From positions 1 to 64,000 of the forward strand of contig JADYYG010000034.1 of assembly GCA_020853755.1 (NCBI GenBank): 64,000 nt of DNA, in the 5' to 3' direction. Positions 14,041 to 22,723 of this stretch are shown one piece after another (position 1 is the first letter of the stretch; each line of letters begins with the position of its first letter). The DNA is from Dehalococcoidia bacterium. Lineage in GTDB: Bacteria > Chloroflexota > Dehalococcoidia > Tepidiformales > Tepidiformaceae. The notes beneath the pieces were generated by a model. The model saw nothing but the letters and a program-made list of their open reading frames with translations, was not told where the DNA came from and did not search any database. Made by a program: the position numbers and the translations under genes.

Positions 14041-14628
14041 TCAGGCTTCCTCGCGAAGACCGCCGCGCAGCATCCAGAACCGCTGGAGCGCCGTGAAGTT
14101 CGCCAACAGCGCGAGGACGGCCACGACCACGGTGAGGGCGTTGAAGAGCAGCCCGATGGTGAGCAAAGCCACGCGCTCCTGTCGCCGGAAGAGGCCGTCG
14201 CGCATCGAGAGGCCCATCACTTCCGCACGCGCCCGCATGTAACTGACGGCGATGCTCCCGAAGATAGCCGCGTAGGCTGCTGCAGCCTGGATTTGCTCGC
14301 CGCGCTCGCTGAAGTACCAGCCACAGGCGGCGAGCACAATTGCCTCGCTCGCCCGGTCGAGCACTGCATCGAAGACCGCGCCGAAGGGACTGGCTGACCC
14401 GGTTGCCCGCGCCACCGCGCCGTCCACGAGGTCGAGCGCGGAGAACACGACATAAACGATTCCGGCTGCGAGGAGGTTCTCGCGCGTAATCAACCAGGCG
14501 GCCGCGAGGTTCCCGAAGAAGCCGAACAGCGAGATCATGTTCGGCGTGATACCGAGCCCGCCGACGGTCCGGCCGATGCCGTCCTGGATGCCCCGGGGTA
14601 GGCGGGTCGGAAGAAGCGTTACCGGCAC
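14041..14628 (-). CDS. CDP-alcohol phosphatidyltransferase (phosphatidylinositol-phosphate synthase-like)
   Basis: About 195 residues with five or six membrane helices. It has the full family motif D-x2-D-G-x2-A-R-x8-G-x3-D-x3-D (D66, D69, D87, D91), which binds CDP-diacylglycerol and metal and joins it to an alcohol phosphate. The GTG start at 14626-14628 lies one base after the stop of the upstream glycosyltransferase; a longer form from 14682 would overlap that gene by about 50 bases. As last gene of the operon with a PimA-like transferase and two acyltransferases, it is best read as making the phosphoinositide acceptor; a phosphatidylglycerophosphate synthase is the alternative. Confidence 0.75.
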   Translation of the reverse strand: MPVTLLPTRLPRGIQDGIGRTVGGLGITPNMISLFGFFGNLAAAWLITRENLLAAGIVYVVFSALDLVDGAVARATGSASPFGAVFDAVLDRASEAIVLAACGWYFSERGEQIQAAAAYAAIFGSIAVSYMRARAEVMGLSMRDGLFRRQERVALLTIGLLFNALTVVVAVLALLANFTALQRFWMLRGGLREEA

Positions 14629-14629
14629 G

Positions 14630-15787
14630 TCAGGCTTCCCGCGAGGCGGCGGCCAGCGTCTTCCGCGAGCGTGACGCGGCAACCTGCTGGTGTTCGTAGA
14701 GGATCCGCTCGTAGTACGAGAGCACGCGATGGGCGACGTGGTCCCAGCTGTAGTGCTGGGCGAGCGCCTGGCCGCGCCGCCCGAATTCAGCCCGCAGCTT
14801 CGGGTCCCGCAGCAACGTGGTGATGGCGGCGGCCAGTTCGGCAGGGTCCTTCGGCTTCACCAGCAGGCCCTCTTCCTCGTGCGTCATCACGCCTGCGAAG
14901 CCCTCGATGTTGCTGGCGACGACAGCCCGCCCGGCGGCGAGCGCTTCGAGCAGCACATAGCCCTGGCTTTCGTTGCCGGTGTTCGGGCAGGAGAAGACCG
15001 TCGCAGAGCGGTAGTAGCGCGGGAGGTCGGCGTAGGGCACGTTCGGCCGGAAGACCACGTCTTCGAACGCGGCCATCAACCGCTGGTAGCGGGTGAAATC
15101 GCCGGCGCCGACCACGATGAGGCGCGTGTTCGGCACCTGTTCACGGACGCGCAGGTAGGCCCGGAGCAGGTACTTGAGGCCCTTTCGTTTCTCCGGACGA
15201 CCGACGAAGAGGACGTTCTGCCTGCCGTCGTTGAACTCCGGCATCGGCTCCGCGGGAGCGGAGAAGTGGGCGTAGTCGATCCCGTTCGGGATGATGTTGA
15301 AGTATCCAGCGAAGTACCGGCTGACCAGCGACGCGGCCGCCGGGGAGACGGCGATCTTTCCCTCGAGCTTGCGAAACCAGCGCCGGGTCAGCGGCGTGGT
15401 GTAGCCGTAGAAGCGGTTGCCGCCCTCCTTCGCAGCGTGGAAGGTACCCACCGTTGCGGACGTGGAGTAGCGAAGGAAGTGGTACGGAAGGAGCGGCATT
15501 AGCGGTTCGTGGAGGTGTACGACGTCGAACTTCCCTTCGCGGAGGACAGCCTTCACTTCGGGGGACTTCCACGCGAAGGTGATGCGTGCGACCGAGCCAC
15601 TAACGCGCATGGGCCACGGCTTCCCCATGACCGTCACCTCGTCGCGCGCCAGGGCCGGCTCTGAAGCGGGTGCGAAGATGGTCACCTCGTGGCCCCAGTC
15701 GCGGAAATACGCGGCGAGGTGCTTGATGTGCGATTTCACGCCGCCCTCAACGCACCAGTCGTAGGGCGACACAATGGCAATCTTCAT
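14630..15787 (-). CDS. GT4 glycosyltransferase, PimA-like
   Basis: 385 residues. The N-terminus MKIAIVSPYDWCVEGGVKSH followed by a GHEVTIFAPAS strand resembles phosphatidylinositol alpha-mannosyltransferase PimA. The GT-B C-terminal domain has GRPEKRKGLKYL and the donor-binding EX7E of ESQGYVLLE, then AGRAVVAS. The enzyme would transfer a sugar from a nucleotide donor to a lipid on the inner membrane face. The ATG at 15785-15787 overlaps the PHP gene stop (ATGA). The sugar donor cannot be read from sequence alone. Confidence 0.85.
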   Translation of the reverse strand: MKIAIVSPYDWCVEGGVKSHIKHLAAYFRDWGHEVTIFAPASEPALARDEVTVMGKPWPMRVSGSVARITFAWKSPEVKAVLREGKFDVVHLHEPLMPLLPYHFLRYSTSATVGTFHAAKEGGNRFYGYTTPLTRRWFRKLEGKIAVSPAAASLVSRYFAGYFNIIPNGIDYAHFSAPAEPMPEFNDGRQNVLFVGRPEKRKGLKYLLRAYLRVREQVPNTRLIVVGAGDFTRYQRLMAAFEDVVFRPNVPYADLPRYYRSATVFSCPNTGNESQGYVLLEALAAGRAVVASNIEGFAGVMTHEEEGLLVKPKDPAELAAAITTLLRDPKLRAEFGRRGQALAQHYSWDHVAHRVLSYYERILYEHQQVAASRSRKTLAAASREA

Positions 15788-16503
15788 CGGCGTCTCACCC
15801 GGAGCATCTTCCGAGGCGTCGCACTGTACCCCCATGCCAGCCCGGCCACCACGCGTGAAATGCCCACGTCACGAAGCGAAGGGTACGGCCGCATGTGGGC
15901 TTGCGTCGTCCCCGAATGGATGGCTTCGCGTAAATGTTCGGCAGTTGAGCCTGCGAACAGTGTCCAGCCCGTCCCAACGTGCGGCAGGTGGTGGGCGTCC
16001 GACCCGCCGGTGACGGGCAACTTCCAGTGCGCTTCATTCCGGCTGGCGGCCCGCGCTCGGGTCCTCAAGGCGGCCGGGCTCGGGTTGGCCAATTCGATAG
16101 CGTCGAGGCGCTGTCCGTCTGATTCGGCCAGCCGGTCGAGCGTGCGCGCGCTAATCGAGCGTGTCAGCCAGCTCATCGGATGGGGAGCGATGGCAAGTCC
16201 CCCCTGGGCGTGGATCGCTTCGAGCGTGGCTTCGATGCCGCGAAAACTCGGCGGCGTGCGTTCGATGTACAGGGCGAGGAGGTGCCCCTGCATGGTCGTT
16301 ATCTCCGCGCCGGGCACGACTTCGAACCGGTAGCCGCGCTGGGCGGCAAGCTCCCGCGCTTCGAGGCCGCCACGCACATCCTCGTGGTCGGTGATGGCGA
16401 CAAGGTCGAGGTCAGTGCGATGCTCGATGTAATCGAGTACCTGGCTGACCGAAGCCATCCCGTCGGAAACGCGGGTATGGATGTGGAGGTCTGCCTTACC
16501 CAC
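15784..16503 (-). CDS. PHP-domain phosphoesterase
   Basis: 239 residues. It has the PHP metal motifs in order: HIH with DLHIHTRVSDG near the N-terminus, ITDHED, an HP motif (IAPHPMSW) and GGSDAHH near the C-terminus. Such proteins hydrolyse phosphoesters. The GTG at 16501-16503 is chosen because DLHIH must be N-terminal; it overlaps the end of the upstream acyltransferase by 8 bases. Its place inside the lipid operon suggests action on a lipid head-group phosphate or an intermediate, but this is inference. Confidence 0.8.
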   Translation of the reverse strand: MGKADLHIHTRVSDGMASVSQVLDYIEHRTDLDLVAITDHEDVRGGLEARELAAQRGYRFEVVPGAEITTMQGHLLALYIERTPPSFRGIEATLEAIHAQGGLAIAPHPMSWLTRSISARTLDRLAESDGQRLDAIELANPSPAALRTRARAASRNEAHWKLPVTGGSDAHHLPHVGTGWTLFAGSTAEHLREAIHSGTTQAHMRPYPSLRDVGISRVVAGLAWGYSATPRKMLRVRRR

Positions 16504-17365
16504 AGGCGTGCACCCGCCAGAAGTCCTCGGTGAACGCCCACTGGCCGGGGTCTCGCCGGAGGTGCGTTTCGAGCAGGCCGGCGAACCGTTCGACGGCGGC
16601 GAGGATGTCAGCTTCCTCGTCGTCCGTTTGGTCGACGCGGAAGGGCTCTTCGACGAAGAGGCGGAAGCGGTCATCTTCGATGCGTGCGGTGAAGACCGGG
16701 AGCACGAGCGCCCGAGACCTGCGGGCAATCTCCCACGGCCCGCGGGGCAGCCGGACCATTCGCCCGCAGAGGTCGACGCAGAGGCCGTTGCCCTGGATGT
16801 CGCGGTCGCCCATGAAACCGACGAGGCCGCCCTCCTGGAGCGTTGCCAGGCAGGCGCGGATGCCCTGGAAGCTCGTCTCGTAGAACCGTCCGCCGGCAGA
16901 CGATCGAAGCCGGATGAGGTAGCGCGACCACGCCCGCGGCCGCTGTGCTTCGACGAGAGCCACGAAAGGGCGGCCACGGAAGGTGAGCGCCTGGATGGCC
17001 AGTTCTGCGTTGCCGCTGTGCGCGCTCATCGCGATGACGGGGCCCGGCTCCTTCAGCACGGCCAGCCGGTCGCCATTTACCAGTTCCAGGTGGTCTGCTT
17101 CGAACCGCTCCATCAGCCGTTCGGGGATGGTGCAGAGGTCGACGAAATAGCGTGCGATGTTCTGGCTGACGGCGAGTGCGGCGGCTTCGGCGGCCTTCCG
17201 GTCGCCGCCGGTCAACGGCAGCATGTTGCGAACCAGTCGGCGGGCCATCCCACGGTGGAGCGTGAACGCGAGCCAGCCAGCCCACGGGGCAATCCGGTAG
17301 AACGGCCCCGGGAACCTCCCGGCGAAGGGCTGAATGAGCCGTACGAACCAGAGCCGGACGCTCAT
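16496..17365 (-). CDS. Lysophospholipid-type acyltransferase (LpxL/PatA family), second copy
   Basis: 289 residues. The family motif HxxxxE is present as HSGNAE, followed by GDRDIQGNG and LPRGPWEIARRS, as in LpxL/HtrB and the mycobacterial PIM acyltransferase PatA. These enzymes acylate sugar hydroxyls of membrane glycolipids on the inner face. The ATG at 17363-17365 overlaps the stop of the upstream acyltransferase (ATGA). Identity with the neighbour is low, so the pair is an old duplication or two separate recruits with different acceptor positions. Confidence 0.8.
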   Translation of the reverse strand: MSVRLWFVRLIQPFAGRFPGPFYRIAPWAGWLAFTLHRGMARRLVRNMLPLTGGDRKAAEAAALAVSQNIARYFVDLCTIPERLMERFEADHLELVNGDRLAVLKEPGPVIAMSAHSGNAELAIQALTFRGRPFVALVEAQRPRAWSRYLIRLRSSAGGRFYETSFQGIRACLATLQEGGLVGFMGDRDIQGNGLCVDLCGRMVRLPRGPWEIARRSRALVLPVFTARIEDDRFRLFVEEPFRVDQTDDEEADILAAVERFAGLLETHLRRDPGQWAFTEDFWRVHACG

Positions 17366-18261
17366 GGCGCGACCCCCGCGGACCACATTGGCCGGAACAT
17401 GTACCACTGGTCCGGGTACTGCCGAATGAACCGCTCGTGGGCGTGCATGATGGCCTGGGTGAGGTTGCGGATGTCCGCCTCGGCGTCGCCGGTTGCGGCG
17501 GTTTCGATGCCGAAGTCACAGAGCGTCGTAACAGCCGGGCGATGGGGATCGATGCGTGCGAACGCCGTGGGTATCACCTTCGCACCCGTTCGCAGAGCGA
17601 GGCGTGCGGGTCCAGCCGGCACGTCGACCTGCTCCCCGAAGAAGGAGACCCGGACACCGTCACCGGGGGTTGACCGATCGATCAGCAGAGCGAGCAGGCC
17701 GTTCTGCTTAAGCGCGCGGATGAGGGACGGTCCGGCCTTCTCCATCTTCACGATCGTCATCCCGAGGCGAGTCCTCGCGCCCATCACCATTGCGTCGAGC
17801 CGCGGGTCGGCGAATGTCTCAGCGACGACGGTCAGGGGGTAGCCGTGAGCGGCTGCAGCGCCCGCGCCGAGGTCCCAGTTTCCGAAGTGCATGCAGACAA
17901 TGACCGCGCCCTTGCCGCACTCGAGGCTCTGCGAAAGCGCTTCGAACTGGGCTTCGCCCTCCACTTCCGCGATCAGTTCTCCGGGCGGGATAGACGGGAA
18001 GCGGATGAAGTCCGCGAGGTACTTGCAGTAGTTCACGAGGGAGCGCCTCGCGACCCGGTCGCGCTCTTTGCGCGAGACGCCGGGGAGCGCGCGCCAGTAG
18101 TTGGCCCGCATGGCCCTGCGCGCCCGGGGCCAGCAATAGTACGCGCCACTGCCGAGCGCCCAGGCAACGGCATAACTCACGCGCAACGGCAGCCGCCGGA
18201 TGACCGCCGAGGCGACCCTCCACGCAAAGTACTGGACGCTGCTGCCGAGGTTCCGCACCAC
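17362..18261 (-). CDS. Lysophospholipid-type acyltransferase (LpxL/PatA family), first copy
   Basis: 299 residues. An N-terminal hydrophobic region (about 10-45) is followed by the HxxxxD motif in MHFGNWDLG, then IDRSTPGDGV and VPAGPARLALRTGAKV, all standard for LpxL-type acyltransferases. It is the first gene of the operon that ends with the CDP-alcohol phosphatidyltransferase. It starts with GTG at 18259-18261; TAAGAT lies 6 bases upstream on the minus strand and no ribosome site is visible, so the operon mRNA may be leaderless. Confidence 0.82.
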   Translation of the reverse strand: MVRNLGSSVQYFAWRVASAVIRRLPLRVSYAVAWALGSGAYYCWPRARRAMRANYWRALPGVSRKERDRVARRSLVNYCKYLADFIRFPSIPPGELIAEVEGEAQFEALSQSLECGKGAVIVCMHFGNWDLGAGAAAAHGYPLTVVAETFADPRLDAMVMGARTRLGMTIVKMEKAGPSLIRALKQNGLLALLIDRSTPGDGVRVSFFGEQVDVPAGPARLALRTGAKVIPTAFARIDPHRPAVTTLCDFGIETAATGDAEADIRNLTQAIMHAHERFIRQYPDQWYMFRPMWSAGVAP

Positions 18262-20446: not shown

Positions 20447-20522
20447 GCCTCCGTAGCTCAGGGGATAGAGCAGCCGCCTTCTAACCGGCTGGTCGAAGGT
20501 TCGAGTCCTTCCGGGGGCGCCA
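20447..20522 (+). tRNA. tRNA-Arg (anticodon TCT)
   Basis: 76 bases including an encoded CCA. The acceptor stem is GCCTCCG with CGGGGGC (one T-G pair), the D-arm GCTC/GAGC, the anticodon loop CTTCTAA and the T-arm GAAGG-TTCGAGT-CCTTC. The anticodon stem is GCCGC/CCGGC, which leaves a C31-C39 mismatch next to the loop. This unusual pair may be real or a sequencing error. Confidence 0.9.
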
Positions 20523-22649: not shown

Positions 22650-22723
22650 GCGGGTGTGGTTCAATGGCAGAATGCGACCTTCCCAAGGTTGAGACGAGGG
22701 TTCGATTCCCTTCGCCCGCTCCA
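22650..22723 (+). tRNA. tRNA-Gly (anticodon CCC)
   Basis: 74 bases including CCA. The acceptor stem is GCGGGTG with CGCCCGC, the D-arm contains GTTCAATGGCAGAAT, the anticodon loop is TTCCCAA and the T-arm is GAGGG-TTCGATT-CCCTT. All arms pair as expected for a bacterial glycine tRNA reading GGG. Confidence 0.92.

Follow-up and report, generated by a model that had tools for sequence, protein, structure and literature searches.

The operon considered here is closest to two described bacterial systems. The mycobacterial locus of the phosphatidylinositol mannosides (PIMs) consists of pgsA1 (Rv2612c), patA (Rv2611c) and pimA (Rv2610c). The conversion of phosphatidylinositol-phosphate (PIP) to phosphatidylinositol (PI) by a phosphatase is biochemically required, and the mycobacterial enzyme is described as unidentified (PMC6506517, PMC9246714), as is the inositol acyltransferase of PIMs (PMC9490103). 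In Bacteroides, the PIP phosphatase is the PgpA-like protein BT_1525 (PMC9246714). Our window, the whole analysed stretch of 64,000 nucleotides from a Dehalococcoidia bacterium (Chloroflexota, family Tepidiformaceae; contig JADYYG010000034.1), carries five translationally coupled minus-strand open reading frames (ORFs) within 14041-18261. In the order of transcription they encode two acyltransferases (AT1 and AT2), a PHP-family phosphoesterase, a PimA-like GT4 glycosyltransferase (GT) and a phosphatidylinositol-phosphate synthase (PIPS). The reading favoured here, held as probable, is that the operon synthesises PI through PIP, the route taken in bacteria, and modifies it further afterwards.

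The fifth gene (14041-14628, minus strand, GTG start) encodes a CDP-alcohol phosphotransferase that, judged by family, structure match and the arginines of the inositol-phosphate pocket, is a PIPS and not a phosphatidylglycerophosphate (PGP) synthase. The protein is above the Pfam cut-off for CDP-OH_P_transf (52 bits), and the CDP-alcohol phosphotransferase signature DxxDGxxARxxxxxxxxGxxxDxxxD is complete (DLVDGAVARATGSASPFGAVFDAVLD). In the PDB the closest matches are bacterial PIPS (6h53, with an E-value of 5.5e-17, and 5d91). In the alignment to these two structures, equivalents of all the inositol-phosphate-binding residues of M. tuberculosis PgsA1 (R94, S132, R152, R155 and R195; PMC6506517) are present as R/S/R/R/R, with K135 replaced by R. 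Among NCBIfam models, archaetidylinositol-phosphate synthase (AIPS) gives 121 bits and PIPSynth 113 bits; both are under their cut-offs (170 bits for the PIPSynth equivalog), which are thresholds for naming and not biochemical features. No match to the pgsA model TIGR00560 is observed for this protein at 1e-3.

PIPS homologues are present in 289 of the 301 sampled Chloroflexota genomes, and the cluster order INO1-AT-AT-PHP-PimA-PIPS, in which INO1 is the inositol-1-phosphate synthase, recurs with losses across the classes of the phylum. At 40 loci found through PIPS and picked across families, the genes beside PIPS include INO1 (20 loci), PimA (29), two ATs (12) and PHP (8). Comparison of the PIPS and PHP searches gave ~22 additional genomes in which matches to the two lie within about 4 kb of each other. 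In a search with the PHP profile only, one genome per species, 80 loci were collected, and 73 of them have a same-strand INO1, PIPS, PimA or AT partner within 6 kb (57 with PIPS and 46 with INO1); the profile was seeded with clustered members, so this share is not an unbiased estimate, and the taxa span several classes.

The losses indicate which gene PHP stays with. At two loci (L074 and L075) PIPS is separated, with INO1-AT-AT-PHP-PimA still together; at four (L093, L105, L115 and L120) INO1-PHP-PimA-PIPS is found without acyltransferases; and PimA is missing from the AT-AT-PHP-PIPS cluster of L210. In Ktedonobacter racemifer, Ktedonosporobacter, Ktedonospora, Thermosporothrix and strain brp13, PHP is followed by PIPS, and the surrounding 6 kb holds no other gene of the pathway. 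Searches of these five Ktedonobacteria genomes as a whole gave no PimA orthologue (none or at most 94 bits, versus 340 in Thermogemmatispora) and no acyltransferase match at 1e-6. Since PHP stays beside PIPS after the loss of PimA and the ATs, it most likely belongs to the PIP-to-PI step, not to glycosylation or acylation, and for the same reason a role as a deacylase or glycolipid enzyme is less likely. PgpA (PF04608) was found neither in the window genome nor elsewhere in the phylum, apart from 3 of the 301 genomes (G098, G202 and G128), which are outside the listed PHP-positive genomes. These three PgpA genes do not adjoin PIPS (one is near a PgsA-like gene), and mutual exclusion of PgpA and PHP is for this reason not used as evidence.

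The PHP-family metal-dependent phosphoesterase, the candidate PIP phosphatase (third gene, 15784-16503, minus strand, GTG start), matches only PHP models in Pfam: PHP_C at 45 bits, over the cut-off, and PHP at 20.9 bits against a cut-off of 26.4. The NCBIfam CehA/McbA model gives 77 bits, slightly below its cut-off. All metal-ligand motifs are present in the protein, and 16 homologues keep them apart from occasional H-to-Q and D-to-E exchanges. The AlphaFold2 model has a pLDDT of 93.7, and a Foldseek search with it returned TM0559, RNase AM, PsfC and CV1693. By its motifs the phosphoesterase metal site is complete, and the modelled PHP fold is confident. The protein begins directly at a metal motif, leaving no space for a signal peptide, so the enzyme is probably cytosolic; a PIP phosphatase would have to be, since PIP is synthesised on that side of the membrane. 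A membrane-binding amphipathic tail was rejected, since the tail is basic and its amphipathicity is not above that of shuffles. Outside the phylum, the actinobacterium Actinoplanes sp. TBRC 11911 (L167) has a PHP homologue (39% identity) beside an opposite-strand AT1-like acyltransferase, with no PIPS within 6 kb; this is a possible case of transfer.

The PimA-like GT4 glycosyltransferase (fourth gene, 14630-15787, minus strand) is above the Pfam cut-off for Glycos_transf_1 (116 bits) and matches PDB PimA 2gej over its full length (370 residues, E-value of 3.4e-57). The GT4 catalytic and donor residues G16, H118, R196, K202 and E274 are kept in nearly all of 103 homologues. At five further positions, those of the inositol-phosphate pocket of PimA, Y9 and R68 are kept, and N97 is changed to L, T119 to A and K123 to G. 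In one genome a PimA-like GT and PIPS share a single uninterrupted open frame (L058:7626-9566), apparently a natural fusion.

Of the two ACYLTRANSFERASES (AT1 and AT2), AT1 is the nearer to PatA. AT1 (first gene, 17362-18261, minus strand) is an LpxL/PatA-type acyltransferase whose nearest relative is the PIM acyltransferase PatA: it gives 141 bits with Lip_A_acyltrans (above the Pfam cut-off), 166 bits with the PIM acyltransferase model PRK07920 (under the cut-off of 209) and an E-value of 1.4e-25 with PDB PatA 5f2t. AT2 (second gene, 16496-17365, minus strand) is a divergent member of the same superfamily, with 81 bits (above the Pfam cut-off) and 78 bits for the same two models; its only PDB matches are PatA, at about 3e-10. 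PatA uses a charge relay of H126 and E200, and has an HX4D motif (PMC4792965). Across 148 sequences (the AT pairs of 73 loci and the window), H126 is invariant and E200 is replaced by D in all; the D131 position in the window is D in AT1 and E in AT2. In a tree of 30 AT pairs and PatA, the first and second ATs fall on either side of one branch (support 94/86), and the split is a single change in 95% of bootstraps; PatA is on a long branch and its placement is unreliable. From this split the two enzymes are judged to be ancient paralogues, separate orthologous groups from an old duplication, which makes a doubly acylated PI-glycoside a likely product. Outer-membrane genes are missing from the Tepidiformales, a monoderm group (PMC10284905), and lipid A is hence not expected as the substrate; a lipid A acyltransferase role was rejected as unlikely on this ground and because the PDB search matched PatA best.

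The favoured route would run as follows. PIPS would join CDP-diacylglycerol with inositol-1-phosphate, supplied by the INO1 of the genome, to give PIP, a step that is well supported and very likely. The PHP metallo-phosphoesterase would probably remove the inositol phosphate, yielding PI. The GT would then attach a sugar to the inositol; a glycosyl-PI is predicted with good confidence, and mannose as the sugar with rather less. AT1 would likely acylate the sugar in the manner of PatA, and AT2, a candidate for a second acylation of either inositol or sugar, would add another acyl chain, perhaps, and tentatively as to the site, on the inositol. What results would most likely be a PI monomannoside-type lipid with one or two such acyl chains, located in a monoderm cell membrane.

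The gene calls agree with a coupled operon. AT1 and AT2 join in an ATGA overlap (17365-17362), as do PHP and PimA (15787-15784); the GTG start of PHP at 16503 is internal to the 3' end of AT2, and the GTG of PIPS at 14628 is within a few bases after the PimA stop. The preferred starts are 17365 (AT2), 16503 (PHP), 15787 (PimA) and 14628 (PIPS), some earlier starts giving the longest ORF. Pfam cut-offs are exceeded for all five families, the exception being the PHP model itself. The sequence-only reading had proposed five overlapping minus-strand genes, two acyltransferases with an HxxxxD/E motif, a CDP-alcohol phosphatidyltransferase with a complete motif and a PIM-like enzyme set; the ORFs, junctions and family assignments confirm the layout and the motifs (HFGNWD and HSGNAE in the two acyltransferases), the matches to PimA, PatA and PIPS support the set, and family and structure place the phosphatidyltransferase with PIPS and not with PgsA. 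No RNA families were found inside the operon; tRNA-Arg(tct) (20447-20522) and tRNA-Gly(ccc) (22650-22723) are near it on the plus strand.

The same reading had called for a search for an inositol-1-phosphate synthase gene, and one INO1 is encoded in the genome, on a contig other than that of the operon. This only copy (C22:36199-37740; read as L178:16199-17740, also L001) carries an N-terminal carph-isopro (HTH-like) fusion, unlike the mycobacterial-type INO1 held within the cluster by near relatives (L094-L096 and L101). The clustered copy was apparently lost in the lineage of the window. Apart from PIPS, the genome has a single CDP-alcohol phosphotransferase. It is likewise on C22, where its gene overlaps one for an inositol-1-phosphate cytidylyltransferase-like nucleotidyltransferase (read as L177:8536-9872); the phosphotransferase has the inositol-phosphate arginine, and the pair recurs in most sampled genomes of the family. 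This adjacency suggests a CDP-inositol pathway, leading to a di-inositol-phosphate solute or a CDP-inositol-based lipid.

In respect to the membrane, a PgsA-type synthase above the cut-off was found in none of the 21 genomes of the window's family, the cut-off being a strict one, passed by only 6 of 14 control genomes. Completeness is 92.6% for the window genome, and relatives at 95-98% agree on the absence. Most CDP-alcohol phosphotransferases of the family classify as PIPS or as the CDP-inositol-associated enzyme; the remainder are a Pss-like fragment and a single unlike copy. Since no PgsA-type synthase was found, the membrane phospholipids may be largely inositol-based and PI may be the main phospholipid of the family. 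PI does occur in Chloroflexota, since the polar lipids of a Dictyobacter species (Ktedonobacterales, class Ktedonobacteria) comprise PI (major), phosphatidylglycerol and diphosphatidylglycerol (PMC12453558). No open-access report on Chloroflexota PIMs was found in the literature, and one Tepidiforma paper is without lipid data. Phosphoinositol mannosides on long-chain diols have reportedly been seen in Thermomicrobia.

Several observations weigh against the favoured reading. None of the five operon proteins reaches an NCBIfam equivalog cut-off, and the acceptor and donor of the GT are uncertain because N97, T119 and K123 are not conserved on the inositol side. PHP enzymes vary in substrate, and those with the closest solved structures use nucleotides or small phosphates. 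PIPS is without a PHP neighbour in Dehalococcoides-like and many Anaerolineae-type genomes, and in 61 of the 301 phylum genomes a PHP homologue is missing at 1e-15; since PIPS-bearing lineages without PHP exist, PHP is not universal and another phosphatase is needed elsewhere. The same diversity of substrates and the many PIPS-bearing genomes in which a clustered PHP is missing, together with three PAP2-type matches elsewhere in the window genome (two above the cut-off), favour an alternative in which the PI/PIM pathway is unchanged but PHP has another task, the hydrolysis of inositol phosphates (free or cyclic) or the trimming of a glycolipid or nucleotide, and PIP is dephosphorylated by an unlinked enzyme such as one of the PAP2 proteins. 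This alternative is unlikely. PHP remains with PIPS after the loss of PimA and the ATs, an inositol monophosphatase adjoining PIPS would destroy the PIPS substrate, and the probable cytosolic location matches the site of PIP synthesis. We propose that the window PHP enzyme is probably the PIP phosphatase, equivalent to BT_1525 and to the mycobacterial enzyme in function but not homologous to them, and the linkage of PHP to PIPS and INO1 makes the earlier suggestion that PHP processes a phosphorylated head-group intermediate, such as an inositol-phosphate lipid, probably correct.

Two further alternatives concern the lipid itself. The catalytic motif is common to all CDP-alcohol phosphotransferases and the genome yielded no other PgsA-type synthase, as would suit an ordinary PgsA-type PGP synthase with the GT and ATs building an unrelated glycolipid; this identity was rejected and is hardly credible, given the lack of a TIGR00560 match against 113-121 bits for the PIPS and AIPS models, the intact inositol-phosphate pocket and the INO1 neighbours of PIPS at 20 of 40 loci. 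It is improbable, too, that the backbone is not (only) diacylglycerol and that, as in Thermomicrobium-like bacteria, the inositol phospholipids have cores of ether or long-chain diol type and are possibly the main membrane lipid. The membranes of Thermomicrobium roseum are of long-chain 1,2-diols (PMC2615216) and the closest NCBIfam model for PIPS is the archaetidylinositol-phosphate synthase, but the glycerol-3-phosphate acyltransferase PlsY, present in 20 of the 21 family genomes including that of the window, leads us to expect glycerol lipids. Returning to the favoured PI route, its fullest form is only tentatively proposed: PHP as a Chloroflexota PIP phosphatase unrelated to the PgpA type, AT2 as a second (perhaps inositol) acyltransferase, and CDP-diacylglycerol phospholipids that are mainly or only inositol lipids in the Tepidiforma-like family.

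The bacterial PIP-to-PI phosphatase is known only from Bacteroides, and in mycobacteria PI feeds essential cell-wall lipids. The operon offers a candidate gene for the PIP phosphatase, the window PHP being a good candidate for the one lacking in the description of the mycobacterial pathway, and, more weakly, a candidate for the PIM inositol acyltransferase. Candidate genes are also present in cultivable relatives, e.g. Thermogemmatispora and Ktedonobacter. Besides Actinobacteria, PIM-type chemistry would then be present in another monoderm phylum at a deep evolutionary distance, a point relevant to how these lipids arose.

In general, the sequence-only reading stands as to a PI/acyl-PIM-type operon with PIPS, INO1 and a PHP role, but not as to an 'undescribed' lipid, since the product may be an ordinary (acyl-)PIM. 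Its enzyme set is real but not peculiar to this genome: context comparison found the cluster, with losses, widespread in Chloroflexota. What is new is the phosphatase candidate and the pairing of the acyltransferases, not the pathway itself. As in the mycobacterial PIM locus, PIPS, a PatA-type AT and a PimA-type GT stand together and the pathway logic is the same (PIP to PI to acyl-PIM), here as predicted from the genes. The resemblance to the order pgsA1-acyltransferase-pimA holds for the gene set and not for the order, which is reversed, with PIPS last. The window-type cluster adds an AT paralogue, a PHP phosphoesterase and often INO1; the acceptor-pocket residues of the GT are changed relative to PimA, and E200 of PatA is D in the window ATs. 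With the Bacteroides inositol lipid cluster BT_1522-1526 (PMC9246714) it shares the grouping of INO1/MIPS and PIPS with a PIP phosphatase specific to the route (here the candidate PHP), but the Bacteroides phosphatase is PgpA-like, a type nearly absent from Chloroflexota, and that cluster makes an inositol sphingolipid and has no PimA or PatA. The window PHP has the fold and the metal motifs (HxH, D/H, E, H and DxH) of TM0559 (2anu), RNase AM (7ug9, 9etk), CV1693 (2yb1) and CehA/McbA. Compared with RNase AM it is, by sequence alignment, a compact 239-residue domain without the ~95-residue insertion, and it differs from all four in its genomic context, that of inositol lipid synthesis.

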